Of a stretch of DNA of 64,000 bases, positions 1,665 through 64,000 are shown in pieces. Position numbers and translations under genes: made by a program. The first letter of the stretch is position 1. Each line of letters starts with the position of its first letter. The notes beneath the pieces are model-generated. The model was not told the origin of the DNA. It did no database searches and worked only from the letters and a program-made list of their open reading frames with translations. Origin of the DNA: a virus. Location: IMG/VR virus record IMGVR_UViG_3300030019_000570, positions 1-64,000 of that record; one strand, given 5' to 3'.

Positions 1665-3095
1665 ATGCCAAAATTTCATCCAACAACCGCAACTGATGCA
1701 TATAAATTTGTGCATTGGACGCAACGTCCTTCGGGATTGACAAGACTTATGTCTTATGGAGAACCTCGTGTAGGAGGTCAACACTCTCATATTGTTTTCT
1801 ATGGTATACAATATTTCATAAAAGAATATTTTATGACTGTTGTCACTAATGAAGATATTGAACGTGGTGCTCGTAGAAGTTTAAATACTTTTGGTAACCC
1901 TGGTTATTTCCCTCAAGAAATTTGGGAAAAAGTTCGCGATTTAGGATATTATCCTTTAGAAATCAAAGCTGTAAAAGAAGGAACTGTTGTTCCAACTGGT
2001 AATGTTTGTTATACAATTGAAGCTACTGAAGAGTGGTTTGCACCAATGGTTAGTCACTTCGAACCTTGGTTAATGTGGAATTGGTATCCAGTTGCCGTTG
2101 CTACTCGTATGTATAATATTCATAAAGGTATTACTCCATCATTCAAAATCTCTACTAACAACGCTATGTTGGATTATGTAGTTAATGATTTTGGATTAAG
2201 AGGTGCTCAAGGTCATGAAGCTGCTTGTTTAGGTGGTTCTGCTGCTTTAATCTTTTCTGATGGTTCTGATAATGTTCCAGCAATGGAATTTATTGAAGAC
2301 TATTACGGAGATGCAACCGTAGGAAAATCTGTATGGGCAACTGAACACTCAGTAGCAACTGTATTTGGTCCTGGTCAGGGAGAATTTGATTATGTCAATG
2401 CTCAATTTGATCGCGCTGGTGACGATGCTATGGTATCAATTGTTATTGATTCTTATGATGATACTAATTTCATTAAAAATGTTATTGGTTCAGAAGCAAT
2501 CAAACAACGTATTATCGCACGTCCAGGTAGAACTATTTTACGTCCGGATTCTGGTGTTCCGTTAACAAATATGATTAAGTATTCTGAAATGCTTGGTAAT
2601 ATTTTTGGATATCACTTAAATGAAGTAGATTACAGAGTAATTAATCATAATGTAGGCTTAATTCAAGGAGATGGTATGAATGAAAATTCAATCGTTGATA
2701 TTTATTCAGAATACATTAAAACTGGTTGGTCTTGTGAAAACTTTGCGGTTGGTTCAGGTGGTGGTTTGCTTGTTGAAGGATTGACCAGAGATACAGATCG
2801 TTGGGCAGTAAAATGCTGTTTCGCTGTAATTGATGGAGAATCAAAAGATATTCGTAAATCTCCTAAAGGAGATATGACTAAAGCTTCAAAAGCTGGTATT
2901 TTGAAACTTCATAAAGCCGGATCAGAATTCATTACTATCGAAAGTTCTAAAGAACAATATGGTATTAATAATGGATATGCTGATGAACTTGAAATAGTTT
3001 ATCGTAATGGTAAATTAATGAGAGATCAACATTGGACAGAAATTCGCACTATTGCTAAGAGTTATCTTGAAGCCGATTTAAAAACAAGTAAATAA
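1665..3095 (+). CDS. nampt: nicotinamide phosphoribosyltransferase
   Basis: 476 aa, normal length for NAMPT. ATEHSVA carries the expected active-site His; RPDSGVPL, QGDGMNENS and AVGSGGGLL are conserved PRPP/product-binding segments of the family, and the C-terminal part (KASKAGILKLH, YGINNGYADEL) also aligns by eye with vertebrate NAMPT. Reaction: nicotinamide + PRPP to NMN. With the adenylyltransferase at the window start this forms a complete nicotinamide-to-NAD+ pathway of the kind phages use to rebuild NAD+ after host defence enzymes deplete it. Followed by a strong terminator that ends the first operon. Confidence 0.93.
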   Translation: MPKFHPTTATDAYKFVHWTQRPSGLTRLMSYGEPRVGGQHSHIVFYGIQYFIKEYFMTVVTNEDIERGARRSLNTFGNPGYFPQEIWEKVRDLGYYPLEIKAVKEGTVVPTGNVCYTIEATEEWFAPMVSHFEPWLMWNWYPVAVATRMYNIHKGITPSFKISTNNAMLDYVVNDFGLRGAQGHEAACLGGSAALIFSDGSDNVPAMEFIEDYYGDATVGKSVWATEHSVATVFGPGQGEFDYVNAQFDRAGDDAMVSIVIDSYDDTNFIKNVIGSEAIKQRIIARPGRTILRPDSGVPLTNMIKYSEMLGNIFGYHLNEVDYRVINHNVGLIQGDGMNENSIVDIYSEYIKTGWSCENFAVGSGGGLLVEGLTRDTDRWAVKCCFAVIDGESKDIRKSPKGDMTKASKAGILKLHKAGSEFITIESSKEQYGINNGYADELEIVYRNGKLMRDQHWTEIRTIAKSYLEADLKTSK

Positions 3096-6675: not shown

Positions 6676-6891
6676 ATGGATTGGATTTTAATGATTTTAA
6701 ACTTATACGCTTATTATTTGATAAGTAATAAGAGAATAATTGGCTTCATACTTGGAGCAATTGGAAGTATTCTTGGAATAATATTATTCTGGAATATGAT
6801 TTCAATAGTTATAATGTATTTAGCATTTACAGTTTTAAATATTAGAGGATTTTTAAAATGGAATAAAAAATTAAAAGAAGAAACAGTCTAG
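6676..6891 (+). CDS. small membrane protein, 71 aa
   Basis: Three hydrophobic stretches cover residues 3-57, ending NIRGFLKWNKK. The size and the Asn-x-x-Gly...Lys-Trp ending recall half-size PnuC-like phage membrane proteins, which would suit a phage with NAD+ salvage, but the resemblance is weak. Confidence 0.6.
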   Translation: MDWILMILNLYAYYLISNKRIIGFILGAIGSILGIILFWNMISIVIMYLAFTVLNIRGFLKWNKKLKEETV

Positions 6892-6892
6892 G

Positions 6893-7035
6893 TCCAGAGG
6901 GCTCTAATTGTATATGAGGGAAGTGACTCTGGAATTCCTCCGTATTTAAAGTATTGGTGAATGTTATATCTAGAATGGTAATTTATTATCGTCGATGATG
7001 TTTCTATAATATACAATCGCAATTAGTATATCTTT
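6893..7035 (+). ncRNA. structured-RNA domain A
   Basis: No ORF. CCAGAG (6898 region) pairs with CTCTGG about 35 bases later, and ATTGTATAT pairs with ATATACAAT near 7010, giving a folded block that ends TATATCTTTTTT. First block of a roughly 970-base noncoding stretch broken only by tRNA-Arg. Confidence 0.5.
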
Positions 7036-7045
7036 TTTAAAATAT

Positions 7046-7213
7046 AAAATATTGAAATGTTGGCTTGGAAGCAGCAATCATCTAAAGAGTGGGACGAGAC
7101 TACGTTGATAAACCAATTCAAGTTGGAATTTAATGTGGTAAGGTAAGTTGGAGGTCACCCCGTAACTGGTAAGGACTGAAATCCCTTTGGCGTAATAGCA
7201 CATCAATATTTTT
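7046..7213 (+). ncRNA. structured-RNA domain B: mimic of 23S rRNA GTPase-associated centre
   Basis: A perfect 10-bp stem (AAAATATTGA 7046-7055, TCAATATTTT 7203-7212, then T) closes the domain. Inside, 7057-7091 matches E. coli 23S rRNA positions 1057-1091 at 30 of 35 bases as I remember that sequence, including the hairpin loop GGCTTGGAAGCAGC and CTAAAGAGTG. After about 98 inserted bases, 7190-7202 matches 1091-1103 at 12 of 13 (GGCGTAATAGCAC against GCGTAATAGCTCA). These are both loops of the L11-binding, EF-G/RF-contacting element. The base equal to A1067 is G; A1095 and A1096 are kept. Two stem positions (equivalents of C1076 and U1101) changed without compensation, so the fold may differ from rRNA or the copy may be drifting. 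Confidence 0.75.
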
Positions 7214-7220
7214 AAAAATT

Positions 7221-7378
7221 AAATGAGTAACATCCGAGAATGGTCGGTGAGTCAGGTAAGAGGGGAACCCAATGCTGACTTAGAATGAGGAATTAAGTCC
7301 AGATATCCCTAACGAAAAGATGTAGGTGTAGTCCCGTGGATAACATGCGTGTAATTGTCCCTCCCGTTACTCATTTTT
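7221..7378 (+). ncRNA. structured-RNA domain C
   Basis: Closed by a perfect 11-bp stem, AAATGAGTAAC (7221-7231) with GTTACTCATTT (7366-7376), then T. Internal hairpins: CCGA-GAATGG-TCGG, GTCAG...CTGAC around GGGGAACCC, and CCTA...TAGG. No coding potential, no family recognised. Same architecture as domain B: long closing stem and trailing U run. Confidence 0.65.
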
Positions 7379-7383
7379 AAAAT

Positions 7384-7456
7384 GCTCCAGTAGCTCAGTG
7401 GATAGAGCATCGGTTTTCTAAACCGAGGGTCGCTGGTTCAAGTCCAGCTTGGAGTA
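7384..7456 (+). tRNA. tRNA-Arg(UCU)
   Basis: Acceptor GCTCCAG/TTGGAGT, anticodon loop TTTCTAA in stem TCGGT/ACCGA, T arm GCTGG-TTCAAGT-CCAGC, A73. Embedded in the noncoding RNA stretch, 5 bases after domain C. Confidence 0.95.
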
Positions 7457-7641
7457 CAACTAGGTTTATTTATTATTAGCTACGATAGAATAAACCATCA
7501 AAGATGGGGTTGTAGTCTTAACTTATAAAGTTATTGCCCATACCAATTAACAAAACTAACTAGGGTCGAGCTACATTTTGCCACTGTTAGTATTAGACTT
7601 AGAGATCAGAGGTAGCCGTGACTACTCTAAGTTGAACAAAT
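7457..7641 (+). ncRNA. structured-RNA domain D
   Basis: No ORF in 185 bases. GGTTTATT pairs with AATAAACC over an 18-base loop, and ACTTAGAG pairs with CTCTAAGT enclosing GGTAGCCGTGACTA. Likely part of the same large RNA region. Confidence 0.5.
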
Positions 7642-7861
7642 AAAATCTCTTTAATTGAAGCAAAACGGTAACCAGGGGGAGACACCCAACCCAATAAGGG
7701 GTAAGGACGAAAGTTGAGTACGTAGGTTATAAACCATAGCAGTGGTTGAATGTTTTGGTAAATGTAGTTATGATATGGTTAGTGTTCGCAGAAAAGCCTT
7801 CGTTATGACCTAAGTCAATATAATTATTCCACTCTGCTTAAAGTGAATAAAGAGATTTTTT
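7642..7861 (+). ncRNA. structured-RNA domain E
   Basis: Closed by a perfect 11-bp stem, AAATCTCTTTA (7643-7653) with TAAAGAGATTT (7848-7858) and a T run. The interior has GGTAAGGACGAAAG, which recurs as GGTAAGGACTGAAA in domain B, so the two domains share a small motif. No family recognised. Confidence 0.6.
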
Positions 7862-7863
7862 AT

Positions 7864-7940
7864 GCCTACTTATACCCTCAAGCTTATATCTTGTTGAAAG
7901 GTTATTTGGTGACAGCCTGGTTCAATCCCAGGAGTAGGTA
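7864..7940 (+). tRNA. tRNA-like gene with abnormal core
   Basis: Acceptor GCCTACT/AGTAGGT, T arm CCTGG-TTCAATC-CCAGG and A73 are intact and total length (77) is normal. The middle does not make a cloverleaf: the best hairpin is CAAG-CTTATAT-CTTG, which would put UAU in a 7-base loop but leave only about 8 bases for the D arm and 21 for the variable region. It may be a tRNA damaged by insertion of the HNH gene that starts 5 bases later, or a non-decoding tRNA-like structure. Confidence 0.5.
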
Positions 7941-7944
7941 CAAT

Positions 7945-8424
7945 ATGGAAAGAAGTAAAAATGAATTATTAGCAATTGAAAAAGGATATAAAATAACTAT
8001 AAATGGTGATATTTTAAATCCTAAAGAAAAAATTTTAACAGGAACTATTTATAATAAAAATTATAAAAAATTTAATATTAGATTAAATGAAAAACATATT
8101 CCAGTTAAAGTACATAGATTACAAGCATATCAAAAATTTGGAGAAATTATTTTTAACGAAGATATAGTAGTTAGACATTTAGATGGTAACGGATTAAATA
8201 ATTCTTGGGATAATATTGAAATTGGATCATATAGTGATAATATGATGGATAAACCTAAAGAAGAAAGAATTAGAATTGCATCTAATGCTAATAAAAAATA
8301 TTCTGATGAATTAGTTTTAGAAATTAAAGCATACCGAAATTTAGGGCATACTTATAAAGAAATTATGGAAAAATATAATATTAGTAGTAAAGGAACCATT
8401 AGTAATATTATTAATAATAGATAA
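7945..8424 (+). CDS. HNH homing endonuclease
   Basis: 159 aa from the ATG that follows the tRNA-like gene. VHRLQAYQKFGE and VVRHLDGNGLNNSWDNIEIG form the HNH core of free-standing phage homing endonucleases (His-Leu-Asp-Gly-Asn, then Asn), and the C-terminus (LVLEIKAYRNLGHTYKEIME onward) is a helix-turn-helix-like DNA-binding segment. It has no in-frame TGA. The stop lies against the first base of tRNA-Cys, so it sits between two tRNAs with almost no spacer, consistent with homing into tRNA clusters. Confidence 0.85.
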   Translation: MERSKNELLAIEKGYKITINGDILNPKEKILTGTIYNKNYKKFNIRLNEKHIPVKVHRLQAYQKFGEIIFNEDIVVRHLDGNGLNNSWDNIEIGSYSDNMMDKPKEERIRIASNANKKYSDELVLEIKAYRNLGHTYKEIMEKYNISSKGTISNIINNR

Positions 8425-8729: not shown

Positions 8730-8734
8730 AACCA

Positions 8735-8880
8735 GTAGGAACAACTGAACGTAGATTGAGAAGGCCTAGGAACTTAATAACGAAAGTTTGATAGTTTATG
8801 CATACTTGTCTCGCGCATCGTATTTGGCGCATGGGTATTATTAAGTTTTTACCAGTTTGGCATACAATCACCGTGGCACA
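8735..8880 (+). ncRNA. candidate structured RNA
   Basis: No ORF. AACTTAATAA (8771-8780) pairs perfectly with TTATTAAGTT (8838-8847), followed by TTT; the loop holds ATAC/GTAT and GCGC-rich pairings. ACCAGT occurs on both sides (8731 and 8851). Family not recognised. Confidence 0.5.
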
Positions 8881-8894
8881 AAAAACTTTAAATC

Positions 8895-9317: not shown

Positions 9318-9887
9318 ATGATTTTAAAACAAGGAATGAAGGTTTTATTAAAACCTAAAGAATGGTATGATGAGAAAAAAGCAGATTTCTTGCCAATATT
9401 GACTAATGATATGGAACAATATTTTGGTAAAGAACATATTATAAAATCTGTAAAAATTGGAGGATCTCAATTAAGAGGTGTTGAATTATTTAATATTGAA
9501 AGTGATTCTAAAGGTTGGTATTTCTCAATAGATATGGTTGATAAGTATTATGATATGCCAATTACAACTAATGGATATGATAGATTAGTAAGTATGTATA
9601 ATACCATAGGATCTAGTTTAACTTCAGGTACTTCAAGTATGTCAAGTGCTTTAAGTATGTATGAACAACTTTCATTACAAGAATTGAGAGGTAGAATGAG
9701 AGGTACTACTGATTTTAGTGGATTATTAGGTTTTTCAAACAGTCTTTCAATTCACGTTAAAGCATTTATACAATATGTTGAGAAGTTTGTTCCATTTGCT
9801 TATGATGGAGTTGTAACTTATACAGATAATGAAAATAATTCATTTACTTTAACACAGTTATATGAGAGATTCACTACCAACAGTTAA
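9318..9887 (+). CDS. tandem paralog 1 of 4, 189 aa
   Basis: First of four neighbouring genes sharing the same layout: an N-terminal GxxVxLKxxxWFDE segment (here GMKVLLKPKEWYDE), a middle YFGKEHII segment, a DMVD-like segment, and a C-terminal block ending in NENNSFTLTQLYERF. This copy has an extra Ser/Thr/Met-rich stretch (residues 90-125). No known family recognised; the N-terminus could be an SH3-like fold. The next gene starts 25 bases before its stop. Confidence 0.7.
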   Translation: MILKQGMKVLLKPKEWYDEKKADFLPILTNDMEQYFGKEHIIKSVKIGGSQLRGVELFNIESDSKGWYFSIDMVDKYYDMPITTNGYDRLVSMYNTIGSSLTSGTSSMSSALSMYEQLSLQELRGRMRGTTDFSGLLGFSNSLSIHVKAFIQYVEKFVPFAYDGVVTYTDNENNSFTLTQLYERFTTNS

Positions 9888-10320
9888 GTATAAAGTAGGA
9901 CAATGTGTACATTTGAAATCTAAAGATTGGTTTGATGTACATGACGATAGAGGTGATGTTAGATTAGGTTTAGCTAGTGATATGAGACCTTATTTTGGAA
10001 CAATTCAAGTTATTACTCATGTTGATACAAATTATTGTGGATATGTTTTAGCAGGTTGCAGTGGTGGTAGTGATAATGAATATACGTATACTGATCAAAT
10101 GATTGATAATATAAAAACTTCTGAATTAATACATAGACATGAAAATATAATTGATCCTGATCAATATTCATGGGATGTTATTACTCCAAATAAATTTCCT
10201 GAACATCTTGAAAAGAATTATACTCCATTTCTTGATGGTGAAACTTTAACATTTACTGATAAAGATAATAATTCATTTACTTTAAAAGAAATATTTGATG
10301 AGTTCTTTAAAGAAGTATAA
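9862..10320 (+). CDS. tandem paralog 2 of 4, 152 aa
   Basis: Same domain order: YKVGQCVHLKSKDWFD, MRPYFGTIQVI, DQMIDN, and LEKNYTPFLDGETLTF before DNNSFTLKEIFDEF. Overlaps paralogs 1 and 3 by about 25 bases each, the same distance on both sides, as expected if the units arose by unequal duplication that kept the overlap. Confidence 0.7.
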   Translation: MRDSLPTVKYKVGQCVHLKSKDWFDVHDDRGDVRLGLASDMRPYFGTIQVITHVDTNYCGYVLAGCSGGSDNEYTYTDQMIDNIKTSELIHRHENIIDPDQYSWDVITPNKFPEHLEKNYTPFLDGETLTFTDKDNNSFTLKEIFDEFFKEV

Positions 10321-10672
10321 AATTGGTGATGTTGTTAGACTAAAATCATTAGCTTGGTTTGATGAAATGATGGAAAATCATGTAGCTGTTGAAGGTGGAT
10401 TAATTTATGATATGCGTCAGTTTTTTGGTAAAGAACAAGTAATTTCAAATAATGAAGCAGGTTATGCATATATACCTTTATATCACTTAGTAGATGATCC
10501 ACGTCATTGGAATTTTAGTAATGATATGATTGAAGGAATAGCTTCATCTTTTCCTGAATATGTAGAAAAGAATTATACACCACTTATTGATGAAGGTGGA
10601 TTGTATTTTATAAATGATAATAATGATGCATATAGTTTAAAAGAAATATATGAGAGGTACAGAGCGATATAA
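10295..10672 (+). CDS. tandem paralog 3 of 4, 125 aa
   Basis: Shortest copy: YKIGDVVRLKSLAWFDE, MRQFFGKEQVI, FSNDMIEGI, VEKNYTPLIDEGGLYF, and SLKEIYERY. Overlaps paralog 2 by 26 bases and paralog 4 by 23. Function unknown. Confidence 0.7.
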   Translation: MMSSLKKYKIGDVVRLKSLAWFDEMMENHVAVEGGLIYDMRQFFGKEQVISNNEAGYAYIPLYHLVDDPRHWNFSNDMIEGIASSFPEYVEKNYTPLIDEGGLYFINDNNDAYSLKEIYERYRAI

Positions 10673-11186
10673 AGTAGGTGATAAAGTATTAATGCAGTCT
10701 TTAGAATGGTTTGAAGATGCATTAAATGGACGAGGTCCAAGACCTCTTTTTGGAGTTGTTGAAAGCATGCGTAGATTGTTTGGAAAAGTTCAAACAATTA
10801 CTATGAGTAGTCAATCTATGAATGATGAGGATAAATATAAAATATCAGGAGCTAATGAATTTAATATCAGTAATGATATGATTAGAGGTTTACTTGAAGA
10901 ATTTAGTCAAACAATAACTCATGATGGTAGATCAGAATATGTTCATAATGATGTTCTTGCTAGTATGACACCATCGTCAGGAACTTATATCATTAATTAT
11001 GGAGATGATCCAAGATTTGGGGGCACAGTAACAAGAACTAAATCATTTTTACAAGTATTAAAGGAGAATTACACTCCGACAATAATTGATGAAGAATTAT
11101 TATTTGTTAATAAAGATAATGAATCCTATACATTAGATGTTTTATATAATAAATTTCATAATACACCTTCAGGATTATTTGAATAA
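10650..11186 (+). CDS. tandem paralog 4 of 4, 178 aa
   Basis: YKVGDKVLMQSLEWFED, MRRLFGKVQTI, ISNDMIRGLL, then an insertion (about residues 90-130) before LKENYTPTIIDEELLF and the shared ending. Followed by a hairpin terminator, so the four genes form one unit inside the tRNA island. Confidence 0.7.
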   Translation: MRGTERYKVGDKVLMQSLEWFEDALNGRGPRPLFGVVESMRRLFGKVQTITMSSQSMNDEDKYKISGANEFNISNDMIRGLLEEFSQTITHDGRSEYVHNDVLASMTPSSGTYIINYGDDPRFGGTVTRTKSFLQVLKENYTPTIIDEELLFVNKDNESYTLDVLYNKFHNTPSGLFE

Positions 11187-13479: not shown

Positions 13480-14424
13480 ATGAAGATATTATTTATTGGT
13501 AATGGAATTTTTGGAGTTCCAGCATTAAAAAAATTACATGAAATTTATCAAGTTACAGTTATAACAACACCACCACGACGTTTCGGTAGAGTAGTACAAA
13601 ATACACCTATTTATATTGCTGGTAAAGCTTTAGGTTGTTTAGTATATACTGCTAATGATATTAATGAACTTGAACATCGTATAATTAGTACTGATTTTGA
13701 TTTAATTGTTGTTGCATCTTATGGACAAATAATTAAAATGAAAATACTTGATTCTGCTAAATATGGTGCAATTAATATTCATGGTTCATTATTACCGAAG
13801 TATAGAGGTGCTTCTTGTATTCAAGCTGCTATTTTGAATAGAGATTCTGAAACAGGAGTTACATTTATTAAAATGAATGCTGCTGTAGATGCTGGAAGTA
13901 TTATTACTCAACGTAAAATGTATCTACCTGTAGGAATGGGATATATTATGCTTCTTGATCAATTATCAAACTTAGCTGCTGAAAATATTCTTCTAACAAT
14001 CACTAAATATACTCGTGGAGTTATTTTAAGACCACAGATAGAAAGTGAAGCTACATATTGTTGTAAAATAACTAAAGATGATTGTTTACTTGATTTTAAT
14101 AAAAATGTTGATGATGTATATGCAAAAATGAAGGCATATGAATCGAATCACGGAGTATTCTTTTATTTACCAGATAACAATACTGAAGTTAAAATTAAAG
14201 ATGCATGTATGTATACTGGACGTGTTAAAGGTGATTTCTTAGATGGAGAATTAATTTGTGTTGAAAATAATAAACTTTTTATAAATTGTAATAAAAGTAG
14301 TCTTCAGATTGTTTCATTACAATTACCTAATAAAAAGGTTATGTCAGCTAGAGATTTTATTAATGGTCATAAGAAGTTAATCACACAATTTGCTGATTTA
14401 CAAATAATTGTACATAATGTATGA
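13480..14424 (+). CDS. fmt: methionyl-tRNA formyltransferase
   Basis: 314 aa, normal length. The hydrolase-type formyltransferase triad is visible as Asn99 and His101 in NIHGSLLPKYRG and Asp137 in AVDAGSIITQ; GVTFIKMNAAVDAG and the basic loop PPRRFGR, which clasps the acceptor stem in E. coli Fmt, are also present. A C-terminal OB-like domain (from about residue 205) completes the architecture. It transfers a formyl group from 10-formyl-THF to Met-tRNA-fMet. The same island encodes an initiator-type tRNA with the C1-A72 mismatch Fmt needs. It ends in TGA five bases before tRNA-Tyr; reading through would run into the tRNA, so UGA is stop here. Confidence 0.93.
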   Translation: MKILFIGNGIFGVPALKKLHEIYQVTVITTPPRRFGRVVQNTPIYIAGKALGCLVYTANDINELEHRIISTDFDLIVVASYGQIIKMKILDSAKYGAINIHGSLLPKYRGASCIQAAILNRDSETGVTFIKMNAAVDAGSIITQRKMYLPVGMGYIMLLDQLSNLAAENILLTITKYTRGVILRPQIESEATYCCKITKDDCLLDFNKNVDDVYAKMKAYESNHGVFFYLPDNNTEVKIKDACMYTGRVKGDFLDGELICVENNKLFINCNKSSLQIVSLQLPNKKVMSARDFINGHKKLITQFADLQIIVHNV

Positions 14425-14882: not shown

Positions 14883-15047
14883 ATGACTCTGTATAAAAAA
14901 CTAAAGTGGACGTTCTTTGCAACACCACGACATGCAACTGAATGGGCTGAACAAAATGAAATGAGAATAACAGCTGCATTAGGAGTTGTTTTTGTAACAT
15001 TTTTAATATTATTATTATTTGGTCAACTTCCAACATGGGCTGGATAA
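14883..15047 (+). CDS. small membrane protein, 54 aa
   Basis: Polar N-terminus (MTLYKKLKWTFFATPRHATE) and one hydrophobic segment near the C-terminus. Four bases after the previous gene, probably co-translated. Function unknown. Confidence 0.55.
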   Translation: MTLYKKLKWTFFATPRHATEWAEQNEMRITAALGVVFVTFLILLLFGQLPTWAG

Positions 15048-15148
15048 ATGACGCTGCTCGATGAGTAGATGTCCTGGTGGGTCGCATTACCGAAATTGCG
15101 ATAGTAGAACATGGGATAGCACTACTTAAAAAAGAGCCCTCCCACCAC
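15048..15148 (+). ncRNA. candidate structured RNA leading into tRNA-Thr
   Basis: TGGTGGG (about 15073) pairs with CCCACCA just before tRNA-Thr, enclosing hairpin TCGCA...TGCGA. No ORF. Could be a processing element. Confidence 0.4.
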
Positions 15149-59840: not shown

Positions 59841-59877
59841 AAATCCCCTAGCCTTAACGGTTAGGGGATTTTTTTTT
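59841..59877. terminator. bidirectional terminator at convergence point
   Basis: AATCCCCTA...TAGGGGATT hairpin with a T run on the + side and A-rich upstream side, between the lysozyme gene (+) and the giant gene (-). It serves both directions. Confidence 0.92.
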
Positions 59878-62800
59878 ACTTTCTATCAACAGTTGGTAAG
59901 ATTTCCATCATATTTCAATTACCTCTTAAAAACGTAACTAAATCAGATTTACCTGCAAGTACACTCTTAAAATCGGTCATAGTATTAGTCATAATTGAAG
60001 CAAAAGCTGGTTCTCAACTTAATGCTCCAAATACACCACCAAATGGATCAAACTCCCCAAAACTCTTCATACCTACTTTAGTAGCTAGTTGTTCGTATTG
60101 AGACATTTCTTTCATTGGTTTCATACCATCTTCTCCTTTAGACATTAATATATGTCCTAATCAAATCATCATCATAGCGATTAATAAATCATGTAACGCA
60201 ACTTTAGCATTAGCTAATCTTTGAGGATCAGTATTCTTTAAATCACCAGTAGCAAGAGCTCTAATAGTTAAACCTAATGAATACATTAAACCTTCACTAG
60301 GAGAACCAATTCAAGCATTAGCAGGAATAATAGGATCTTTAGAACCTAATTGATCTTTAGTTACTTCTTGCATTTCATAATTACCTTGTTCATCAATTAC
60401 AGGTTTACCATTTTCATCAGTAGTCATTTTTTGATAATATAGAATTTTATTTCCATTATCATCAATTGTAAACTTTTGACCCATATAACCTCTAGGAGAT
60501 TTTTGATCAGGTTTACCAAAATAATATTTAACTTTAGATGGTCAGAATGTTAAGAATTGTCCAAAAATAATACCCATTGCAGTATGTTTAATCAAAGGTG
60601 ACATATCTTGATCATAAAATCCATAAGCCATATCAGAAAAATTCTTAATACTACCACGTTCTTTAGATGTGTATGCTGATGGAATATTATCTTTTTCAGT
60701 TAAAAGTTTTTCACCAAACGAAGAATTCTCACCATTAAACTCGTCAATTATAGTTAAATACAAACTACGTTGTTTATTGTATAATTCATCAGATGCATTA
60801 TATTGATATCCATTAGCTTCGCGATTTTTAAAATAATGAGCATATCTTTTATCTTTAGAAGGATCATATTGTAGTTGTCCTTCTGAATTTAAACTATGTG
60901 CATCATAACAACCATCATGAATCATTTTTGCAAATAATAAGGATAGTCGATTTACATAATCTGGTGCAGTATTGAATCAATACATATTTTCACCCAAGAA
61001 GTTAAATCCGAATTTATCAACTTTCTTTCTATCAACAATGTGATTTAAATCTTGATTAGCAAAACGCATTTCTAAGTTGATAGCTTCATTTAAGGCATAT
61101 GTTTCTTTATTAGGATCTAATACTAATTTATAAGCTTTTGCAAGATGATCTCCATTAAAACTATCATCTCCATAAATTTTACTTCATGCATAAGATGTAT
61201 TCTTAACTGTTCCAACAAGTAACTCTTTAATTAATAATGCAGGTCTTAATGAAATTGCCATTAAACTCGATATTTTTTGTACCTTTTTAATAACAGCTAA
61301 TGCTTCTGCACCTTCTTTATCAGCTACTAACGATTGACCATATACAGCAGTTTTCATTTGATTAAAGAAATCTTCAAGAGCTTCTGTAAGTTCTTTAGTC
61401 TTTCCTGAACTTCATCCGTGAAACTTCATTACTGTTAATGCAGAATGTATATTAGGAAGTACTGTATTAAAGTGTTTTTCTCTAATATTTTCAAAAGCAT
61501 ATTTTAAACCAATAACATCTAAGTTTACTTCAAAAGCATTTACTCCATATTTTTCAATTAAACTTAATCTATAATTGTCATTAGTATTTTTAAATTGATT
61601 ATACATACGTTTAAATCCATTAACTGATTCATAAGATTCAACACGTTGTTCTTCTGTAATATCTCTAGGATCTAATAAACCTTTAGTATCATCTCAGAAT
61701 TTACCAACAGTTTTTCTAAAACCATCTGTAGTAATTGATTTTCATTTACTTAAACTCATTTTCTTAACAAGTGGAGCTTTAAATAAATCAGATCCAATAG
61801 ATGTTCATTCACTAAAGTTTTCGTGCTTTTTAAATTCTTCTAATGTTTCAATATTGTATTTATTTATAGGACTATATTTAAACATATTGAATACTACTGT
61901 TTCTAAATAAGCTCTTTGAGGATTATCAAGATTAGATTTAAGATCTCATGGATTTTTAAATCTAAAATCATTATCAATAACACCATTATGTTGTTCAAAG
62001 AAAACTTTGTGATATTGATCAGCATCTCCAATAATTATTTTTTGAAGAGTAGAACGACCTATTGCTTCATAGTATTTATTAGTTGCACTTACAATTGAAG
62101 CAGATTCTTTATTAAATTCAGAAGCAATTTTGTTATGTGCAATGGTAATCATACCGTGTAAACGAGTCATAGCTTGTGATTGTAGAGCATCGGCAGTATT
62201 GAAATGTTGACCTTGAAATAAACCTACAATCTTATTACCATTCTTATCATATTCTGGAGATGTTCCCATAACCATAGTTCTAATTCAATCAGTAGCATCA
62301 CCAATTCTAATTCCATATCTAGGAGTTGCATAATCAAATGTATCATTTAAATTAGTGTAATATGATACACCTAATGATACAAGATAGTATATATAATTCA
62401 AAGGGTCTGAGAAATCTTGAATTTCAGTTTGGTCTTTATTTTGAAGACTGTTTCCATATTTATCAAGAAGTTCATTTCTAAACTTTAAAAACCATTGTAA
62501 TTTATCATTAGCTGTAGACATTTCTTCATCATCTTGACGATATGAAGCAATTGTTGTTTTTAACGCAGAATTATCAATATTACCAGCTTTAGATAAAATT
62601 TCACCTCATATGGTTTTCATCATATCAGATGCTTTTAAATTTCCTGTTTTAAAATTGTTTTTAAAATCAGATTTAACTTTTACAATTTCATCACCTAATA
62701 AATTAAAATTATGAATAGCTTTATCAATTGGAATAAAATCCGCTTTATCACTGAATCAGTTATATACAGATACATTATTAATTGTTGAACCTTTTAAGTT

Positions 62801-64000
62801 ATCAGTTAAAGCATTTAATACTGTCAAAGCTTTCATTATTTCAATATTAGCTGTACTTGCTGTAAGTATTCTACTATCATTAGCTAATGATTTATTAGGT
62901 TTAAATTTACCTAAAATAGTATTACCTCTAGTAAATTCATTAACTTGATCTAAAGCATTAATAGTAATTGCAATAGCTTCTACACTTCGAGTATTAATGT
63001 TTCTAAATAATAATACACCAGCATGAGATAATTCAGGAATTGAATTTTCATCATTTACTATTTCCCATTCAGGTGTTAAATATTTATTAAGTACTCTTTG
63101 CATTTGAATTGGAGCTTCCTTACCATTAATAAGAATTCCATGTTCTTTATTTTTAGCAGCTTTAAATGACTTAACAAGGTCATTCATTTTACTATCTTTA
63201 GCATTAGTCCATTTTGTTACATAATCTTCAACTTTAGCTTGAAATCTTTCTTCCCAACCTAGTTTAGTTTTATCTTCTTCAATCCTTTCAGTATTTAAAT
63301 TATTTACAATATAAATCTTAGCTTGACCTTCTGAACGAGCAATAGCCTCTTTAACTAAATTTTCAACAGATTTACCTTTTGTTTTAGTTTTATAATCATA
63401 AGCAGGAAATGCAATCTTACAAGTATCAACAATTTCAGAATCTAAATCAGTAGTAGATAAATGATCCCTTTTGATTTTAGAAGGAATAAGAGTTCTTAAA
63501 TCATTACTCATATTACCTGAATTATATTCTAATCCTGATGATGAATTTGATCTGTCTGAAATTTCTTCTAATGTAATAGCGTTAGGATTTATTTCAATAT
63601 TATTACCTTTTTTAGGAACAATTAATTGTAGTATATTTAAAGAAGATTGAGCTGTATCAACATAACTATCTAACAACTGACGTTTTATTCCTAAAATATA
63701 ATCAGTTTCTAATTTCTTAGATGAATCCCAATCAGAATATTTATTTCTTGAAACTTTAATTTCATATAAATTAGGAATTCCTTTATCATCAATTTCTAAT
63801 ACATGAATATTTCCATTCATATGATTAGCAGTACTGTTTACAGATTGACCTATTTTAATAATACTATTAGACGATTGCATTTTTCTACCTCAAACAATTA
63901 AATCATTTTTAAGTGTAGCAATCGCTATTTTGTAATTGTCTAAATTAAATTCTTTTTTCTCAAAGTTAGACGTTCCATCTAATTTATCAAATTCTTTAGA
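59876..64000 (-). CDS. giant late virion-type protein, UGA read as Trp (5' end outside window)
   Basis: One minus-strand frame runs from the window edge to TAA at 59876, at least 1,374 codons. Read conventionally it breaks into at least 17 pieces, all at TGA and never at TAA or TAG; I count 16 in-frame TGA and 5 TGG, all TGG in the upstream third (above about 62.4 kb). Near the N-terminal side, NIHVLEIDD, LYEIKVSRNKYSDW and KRQLLDSYV look like a PD-(D/E)XK nuclease domain (D...ExK...Q). The middle is helical; near the end are hydrophobic segments (MAISLRPALLIKELLVG, LLIAMIMMIWLGHILM) as in phage ejection or cargo proteins. Size, strand and recoding match the very large virion proteins of crAss-like phages. 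No RNA polymerase DxDxD motif is seen in this part. Confidence 0.85.

Follow-up and report, generated by a model that had tools for sequence, protein, structure and literature searches.

A split copy of the GTPase-associated centre in a phage tRNA array

The window, i.e., the whole stretch of 64,000 nucleotides of viral DNA that was analysed (IMG/VR record IMGVR_UViG_3300030019_000570), carries at 7046-7212 on the plus strand a split copy of the GTPase-associated centre of 23S rRNA (GAC, helices 43/44). The element belongs to a phage tRNA array and precedes tRNA-Arg(UCU), which has the same orientation. Its parts are listed below, with rRNA positions given in E. coli numbering.

7046-7055, plus strand: 5' arm of the closing stem P1, counterpart of the helix ending at 1055, pairing perfectly with 7203-7212
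7056-7090, plus strand: 5' half of the GAC copy, equivalent to E. coli 23S 1056-1090, with the H43 hairpin, its 1067 loop and the junction UAAAGAGU
7091-7094, plus strand: GGGA, 5' strand of PI, the stem closing the insert, pairing with UCCC at 7182-7185
7091-7185, plus strand: inserted domain of 95 nt between 1090 and 1091, as read from the sequence
7152-7185, plus strand: class A insert motif ACCCC-N5-8-GGUAAGG ... CCC, common to Pseudomonas and Aeromonas phage elements
7186-7189, plus strand: UUUG linker from PI to position 1091, phage-specific and conserved in the family
7190-7203, plus strand: 3' half of the GAC copy, equivalent to 1091-1104, with the H44 tip and its GCGUAAUAGC loop
7203-7212, plus strand: 3' arm of P1, exact complement of 7046-7055
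7384-7457, plus strand: tRNA-Arg(UCU), neighbour within the phage tRNA array, called by ARAGORN and Rfam

The original prediction had proposed a phage RNA that copies the GAC, closed by a perfect 10-bp stem and carrying about 98 inserted bases inside helix 44, and each of these points was borne out. Window 7057-7091 is identical to E. coli 23S 1057-1091 at 30 of 35 bases, with differences at 1067 (A>G), 1076 (C>A), 1082 (U>C), 1089 (A>G) and 1090 (A>U), and 7190-7202 is identical to 1091-1103 at 12 of 13 bases, the sole difference being 1101 (U>A). When 1-kb pieces of the window were compared on one strand with E. coli 16S, 23S and 5S rRNA by blastn, the element locus gave E = 1.7e-7 and the second-best place, on the same strand, E = 0.046; against rrlB the match was placed at 23S 1057-1088. 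The best placement of the closing stem is 7046-7055 with 7203-7212, and 99 nt (the 95-nt insert plus UUUG) separate positions 1090 and 1091. Two uncompensated stem changes, raised in the same prediction as a warning, are real as well (G1062/A1076 and C1082/A1086). Both mismatches recur in the family described below, A1076 in 7 of 114 rows and C1082-A1086 in 3 of 103 with the window counted. Thermodynamic folding of the window RNA alone was unremarkable (z = -0.65), and the case for the element stands on homology and covariation.

In Rfam 15, searched with the window, the element and 18 related loci, no family matched the window element. Within the window and the 18 loci, large-subunit rRNA (RF02541) did not reach its gathering score, GOLLD and ROOL were not matched at gathering threshold, and no intron family was matched at the element, so no catalytic intron core was found in the insert. 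The leftover Rfam matches were set aside as tRNAs, one distant group I intron and sub-threshold noise, to which a chance match to CAESAR on the opposite strand (E 9.5) belongs. That sole group I match (L111, 2941-3164) sits among the tRNA genes of an element-bearing contig, about 5 kb from the element. A literature search for phage rRNA mimics, run without bioRxiv and most subscription journals, gave no description of the family, and in the general literature on the GAC, L11 and termination no phage GAC RNA was described among the matches listed. These results agree with the remark in the original prediction that its author knew of no described phage RNA of this kind.

Several further features of the window were recorded. 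Between the element and tRNA-Arg, window 7216-7383 holds a second apparently structured RNA (7224-7376, closed by GAGTAAC/GTTACTC), for which neither a relative among the named phages nor an Rfam match was found. By eye, long non-coding structured-looking stretches lie between tRNA genes at 6890-7040, 7460-7840, 8730-8890 and 15045-15145, and tRNA-like ends (GCCTACTT...AGTAGGT) bound 7863-7941, which carries no ARAGORN call and overlaps the start of an HNH endonuclease-like ORF (7843-8424). The window also contains a nicotinamide phosphoribosyltransferase gene (1665-3095), a formyltransferase-like gene within the tRNA array (13486-14424) and four adjacent ORFs (9318-11186) that contain repeated segments and look like paralogues in tandem.

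A family of split elements in large phages

The split GAC element is carried by 19 named phages of eight host genera. In 13 of these both halves were read, and the remaining six, the pEa_SNUABM phages, were included by alignment (99% of the GAP32 element at 82.7% identity). The two-piece layout was seen by blastn in Aeromonas phage 4_4572 and in Pseudomonas phages UNO-G1W1, pf16, Milchi and Astolliot, and the 5' half of the element in Serratia and Erwinia jumbo phages; further named carriers are GAP32, CBB, XbC2, Kaldavass, XacN1, XaC1 and ME3. Paenibacillus phage Pd_22F was rejected as a carrier, as an uninterrupted 23S is present. Public records labelled as phage that contain bacterial 23S are MZ092003.1 (about 84.0 kb), where it was read, and KM209255, CAKLQF020000045 and similar records, where it is annotated.

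A scan of IMG/VR with a 28-base pattern from the 5' half returned 15 loci, 14 of the phage type and one true 23S. With a 3' pattern at least 113 further loci were found, and 98 of those listed have a 5' half upstream; a second 5' pattern gave 96 stretches. Pooling of the pattern and blast loci yielded at least 173 elements, at least 127 of them non-redundant at 85% similarity, and a later scan described below added 44 (one locus shared). A search for the split element recovered it in 174 of 198 loci and, on the reversed letters, in 0 of 198. Among contigs of bacterial and archaeal genomes the 3' pattern occurred at at least 120 loci; of the matches listed, 13 had the split element and 107 did not, and we estimate that chance would give about this many 3'-pattern matches in a genome collection of that size.

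Searched with a covariance model built from 40 elements, 46 phage records, including some that had contributed to the model, gave a match to the element in 45; the record missed (G011) holds a variant with an extra hairpin. The model matched a single place in 42 records and two places in three (G000, G016 and G009), the second place in G000 and G016 being the 3' half of the same element. The element is thus usually present in single copy. One phage locus (L129, reverse complement, 293-762) contains two tandem GAC elements, one with U at 1072 and U-A at 1092-1099 and one with C and C-G.

For the structural analysis a table of 114 rows was compiled. The other 13 of the 127 elements, which lack GAG or have one additional base or an extra hairpin in the vicinity of 1078, were left out; at least two extra-hairpin variants (L059 and L108) remained in the table, out of register. 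The extra hairpin, on the 3' side of H43, was seen in L083, L125, L051, L082, L130, L101, L028, L127, L086, L059 and L108, where UAAAGAGU or a near variant of it follows at some distance. A tree of the element cores (65 columns) was too weak to count independent changes, and its counts of 32 and 25 were not used.

The inserted domain is the diverse part of the element. It measures 43-441 nt in the 127 elements, where the value for L129 spans its two tandem elements, and 34-344 nt in the 44 others. The motif ACCCC-N5-8-GGUAAGG lies close to the insert end in 32 of 127 elements, and a looser GGUAAGG motif occurs in 39 of 127 against 9.4 in shuffles. A second insert class, found in jumbo phages of several genera (L007, L009, L038, L043, L077, L079, L115, L172, L321-L325, L345 and L346), ends in (A/G)CCCUUAGAG before the UUUG linker. 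We also considered whether the inserts hold further pieces of rRNA and do not rely on this idea, since the excess of matches is slight (90 at E<1 for 127 inserts compared to 68-80 in five mononucleotide shuffles) and the best one, in L129 at E 0.002, is its second GAC copy; the next has E 0.006.

Secondary structure and tertiary core

The original prediction had proposed covariance modelling on homologous phage loci as a check, and the closing stem, lower H43, the insert stem and the pair 1082-1086 all covary. All eight P1 pairs tested lay above the maximum of 300 shuffles of the 114 rows, with, e.g., 97 Watson-Crick (WC) and 5 GU pairs of 114 at 1051-1108 against 46 expected. The lower stem of H43 (1057-1059/1079-1081) of the GAC fold is present, and 1058-1080 is WC in 108 and GU in 4 of 114 rows, with four WC types and 49.6 expected. 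The first PI pair is WC in 113 rows and GU in one, again with four WC types, and the second in 107 and 3.

Given a gap-free alignment of 40 rows, RNAalifold recovered P1, H43, PI and the H44 tip unprompted, and 16 of the 22 pairs of its structure show changes on both sides. In the structure as named here, 92.5% of the cells of these 40 rows are paired, compared to 67.7% after shuffling and at most 53.5% after sliding, and the covariation score is 0.613 compared to 0.139 and at most 0.166, respectively. RNAalifold offers one alternative, in which UG of the linker pairs with 1102-1103 and replaces 1087-1102/1090-1101; all these bases are nearly invariant, so covariation cannot choose between the two pairings.

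Loci gathered by an exact pattern in one half have inflated conservation inside that pattern, and each half was therefore judged in loci found via the other. In 68 elements found via the 3' half alone the 5' half is conserved: positions 1060, 1063 and 1075 are kept in 68 of 68 and 1073, 1074 and 1077 in 67, and at the tip 1067 is A in 59, 1068 G in 55 and 1070 A in 53; 1087-1089 were not counted, since rows had been admitted by their GAG. In 32 elements found via the 5' half alone, positions 1092, 1093, 1098, 1099 and 1101 (A) are kept in all 32 and 1095 in 31, and at the tip 1096 is A in 22 and 1097 U in 13. According to these counts the folding core hardly changes and the tip is variable in places. 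The loop bases, on whose retention in related phages the original prediction had staked its case, are kept at the homologous loci.

The UUUG linker reads U 113, U 113, U 112 and G 109 in the 114 rows, for most of which UUUGG was part of the search pattern, and U 31, U 31, U 30 and G 28 in the 32 elements found via the 5' half alone. The marks U1090 and A1101 of the phage type each occur in 112 of 114 rows. An uninterrupted H44 (1087-1102) is absent, as every phage-type element listed has its insert between 1090 and 1091.

Covariation extends to the tertiary core. Among the 103 rows with both letters, the pair 1082-1086 is U-A in 57, C-G in 25 and A-U in 15, i.e., WC in 97 against 41.6 expected, the window itself having C-A. 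U1060 is present in 114 of 114 rows. A1088, which formed part of the admission rule for rows, also occurs in 12 of the 13 excluded ones, as AA-N-GAG or UAAUGAG, with L152 lacking it. In the GAC, U1060 and A1088 are Hoogsteen partners.

Phage ME3 has U1072, U1092 and A1099 where the elements read earlier had C, C and G. A scan for U1092-A1099 gave 97 loci. For the 5' half a strict rule was applied, tighter than that of the main set and without any requirement at 1072, and 55 of the loci passed it; in the 44 non-redundant ones 1072 is U in 43 and C in one (L414). The C1092-G1099 set comprises 113 loci, 84 with a strict 5' half, and its 68 non-redundant ones have C in 67 and U in one (L129). Under the strict rule 42 of the 97 U-A loci and 29 of the 113 C-G loci are without a 5' half and hence uncounted. 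The exception L129 is explained by mispairing of its tandem elements, U1072 belonging to the U-A element, and each element by itself is consistent. The association of 1072 with 1092-1099 has a Fisher p of 1e-28 when kinship is ignored. Position 1072 and the pair 1092-1099 presumably form a base triple in the GAC; if they do, the phages keep the triple through joint change. Since the closing stem, H43, the insert stem, 1082-1086 and 1072/(1092-1099) covary, the tertiary core of the GAC is kept.

The phage RNA thus shares with the 23S GAC (H42-H44; the 58-nt L11-binding domain or thiostrepton loop) its sequence core, the H43/H44 pairs and, as covarying positions, 1082-1086 and 1072/(1092-1099); E. 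coli 23S reaches 50.8 bits with the model R1, which was built from phage elements. It differs in being free-standing, in the separation of 1090 from 1091 by 34-441 nt of insert and the UUUG linker, in U-A at 1090-1101, in a closing stem without fixed sequence and in variation at tip positions 1067, 1068, 1070 and 1096. Comparison of the phage sequences establishes the homology, the split architecture, the secondary structure and the covariation of the GAC core, and lends indirect support to two further points, that the RNA is transcribed together with tRNA genes and that base 1067 matches the host.

Base 1067, genomic surroundings and a possible role in trans

A tRNA gene lies within 2 kb of 81 of the 127 elements, where random placement gives 68.5, and is on the same strand in 81 of 81; within 100 nt the numbers are 53 observed and 29.9 by random placement on the same loci. 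In 37 of 127 loci no tRNA is present at all. A T-run of at least five within 25 nt after P1 was found in 24 of 127 elements against 4.3 expected. The loci share no neighbour gene, and the largest ORF families within about 6 kb, which by eye resemble homing endonucleases, reach 9 of 127. A phage L11 gene was absent from 46 of 46 phage records searched, which may be incomplete, with 14 of 14 controls positive; any L11 partner would therefore be that of the host.

At position 1067 the 127 phage elements have G in 12, A in 112 and another base in 3, the window being among those with G. Host 23S was searched with exact patterns, which pass over genomes whose 23S is incomplete or not identical. Of 60 Bacteroidales genomes searched, 8 matched, and all 8 have G at 1067; the similarity of the window to 23S rRNA, G1067 included, persists against these real Bacteroidota sequences. 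In a Bacteroidota-wide sample 1067 is G in 21 and A in 22 of 43 matched genomes out of 118, and in genomes of the same phylum as a Pseudomonas and a Clostridiaceae genome it is A in 32 of 32 matched (80 searched) and 13 of 13 matched (81 searched), respectively.

Hosts were approached by proxy. Phage loci with G1067 use Shine-Dalgarno motifs less (0.12 compared to 0.34; 12 and 100 loci with at least 4 ORFs; p 6e-4), and Bacteroidota-type promoters are commoner at them (permutation p 4e-4). In the previously unused U-A set, where 1067 is G in 15 of 44, the result was repeated (0.07 compared to 0.32 at 15 and 24 loci, p 2e-4; promoters p 0.008). The window itself has a Shine-Dalgarno motif at 7 of 104 ORFs and a weak promoter excess, on which its host assignment by proxy is based. 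Exceptions to the matching are L089 (G1067, Shine-Dalgarno 0.56) and the Acinetobacter phage ME3 (G1067), and position 1097 gave no sign of following the host. Base 1067 thus tends to follow the host as judged by these proxies, and phage kinship may account for part of the association.

All matched host 23S with G1067 have an extra base at 1078/1079, as far as exact patterns detect it, and a pattern without this base matched 4 times in the same 118 Bacteroidota genomes, always with A1067. The extra base is not confined to Bacteroidota, as a Treponema 23S has one. It was seen in 0 of 12 and 0 of 15 G1067 phage elements in the element listings; these elements are therefore not recent copies of such host rRNA.

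That many large phages carry a GAC-fold RNA, often among tRNA genes, suggests that a decoy of the host ribosome is in use. The free 58-nt domain of rRNA, a known ligand of L11, folds autonomously and bears the name L11-binding RNA construct in PMC4409310. In the RelA complex described in PMC5829649, A1067 makes a stacking contact with the elbow of the A/R-tRNA. The phage RNA, with the fold of the 23S GAC, would act in trans. Its partner could be host uL11, a ligand recognising the 1067 tip (RelA with A/R-tRNA, a translational GTPase or some other effector), or both. Host functions that depend on L11 or the GAC, such as RelA activation and factor-dependent steps including termination, would then be reduced during infection, and the variable insert may stabilise the fold or add a phage-specific function. 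We regard a free-standing decoy that acts in trans and titrates uL11 and/or a GAC ligand as the most likely of the readings, with even odds of being right, and lean slightly in favour of the broader statement that a host-tuned decoy of the factor-docking site, spread over many lineages, titrates uL11, a GAC-reading factor or a defence effector. A conserved fold does not name the ligand. Judging by its contacts, a decoy that binds only the C-terminal domain of L11 would have no need to match base 1067, so the matching is a hint of a tip-reading ligand.

One idea about phage tRNA arrays is that they replace or protect translation RNAs under host attack, and the element could, in the same spirit, be an anti-defence sponge that baits a host nuclease, modifying enzyme or sensor recognising the GAC. 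The same-strand tRNAs near 81 of 127 elements, the host-following of the tip base and the spread across many large phages would all fit such a sponge, which we consider unlikely but credible, as we know of no defence effector aimed at the GAC. Host uL11 might instead be recruited as a scaffold, stabiliser or chaperone for the insert, host translation not being the target; the use of S1 by Q-beta is a precedent for recruiting a host RNA-binding protein. Recruitment would account for a fold conserved down to 1072/(1092-1099) and for a diverse insert that could carry the function, but leaves the host-following of 1067 unexplained, and is in our view distinctly unlikely.

The original prediction had also linked the RNA to the reading of UGA as Trp in the late genes of this phage. 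In such a scheme the RNA would bias release factors so that reassigned stops are read as sense. A 1334-codon frame late in the window (59876-63880, minus strand), for which no PHROG match was found, is open only with 15 UGA as sense. CTA-anticodon tRNAs (tRNA-Pyl according to ARAGORN), possibly amber suppressors, were seen in the element-bearing contigs L009, L010 and L015 and may be counted on the same side. As a general explanation the UGA link is unsupported and tuning of stop codons is improbable, since many carriers are phages of Pseudomonas, Aeromonas, Erwinia and Serratia, which we presume to use the standard code. That an expressed 23S fragment can give UGA readthrough is on record in earlier work quoted in PMC6337102, where the fragment covers nt 74-136 and not the GAC.

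A processing or termination structure acting in cis within a tRNA operon, with no ribosomal ligand, would be in keeping with the shared strand of element and nearest tRNA and with the T-runs after P1. We hold it to be very improbable, because a role in cis does not need GAC-specific tertiary covariation and 37 of 127 loci have no tRNA. A functionless relic or contaminating host rRNA, suggested by the true 23S in some phage records (L022, Pd_22F and those annotated as 23S), is close to untenable, as those records show the uninterrupted layout and are separable from the phage type, whose UUUG, U1090, A1101 and insert come with pervasive compensatory change that contradicts such a reading.

The proposed decoy has partial parallels in known systems. 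Large, ornate structured RNAs such as GOLLD and ROOL are found in phages near tRNA genes, and the GAC RNA resembles them in being structured and near tRNAs. Leaders of ribosomal-protein mRNAs, as described in PMC10931766 for the L1 site of the L11-L1 operon, likewise mimic an rRNA site and capture a ribosomal protein; they act in cis on host mRNAs, whereas the GAC RNA is phage-borne and has no common neighbour gene. The 23S fragment of PMC6337102 is a free piece of rRNA that alters termination in trans, as proposed here, but it was expressed in the laboratory and comes from outside the GAC.

Phages bring tRNAs and some ribosomal proteins, and to our knowledge no natural, widespread phage RNA has been known to reproduce a functional centre of rRNA. 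If the decoy reading is true, the element would be a phage counter-measure against the ribosome's own functional centre, equipped with an interchangeable insert. The family provides a concrete way into the action of large phages on translation factors, on the stringent response or on ribosome-centred defence. It also constitutes a natural library of some 170 non-redundant GAC variants, in which a model RNA tertiary fold evolves outside the ribosome, and which separates the constraints of folding and ligand binding from those of the ribosome.
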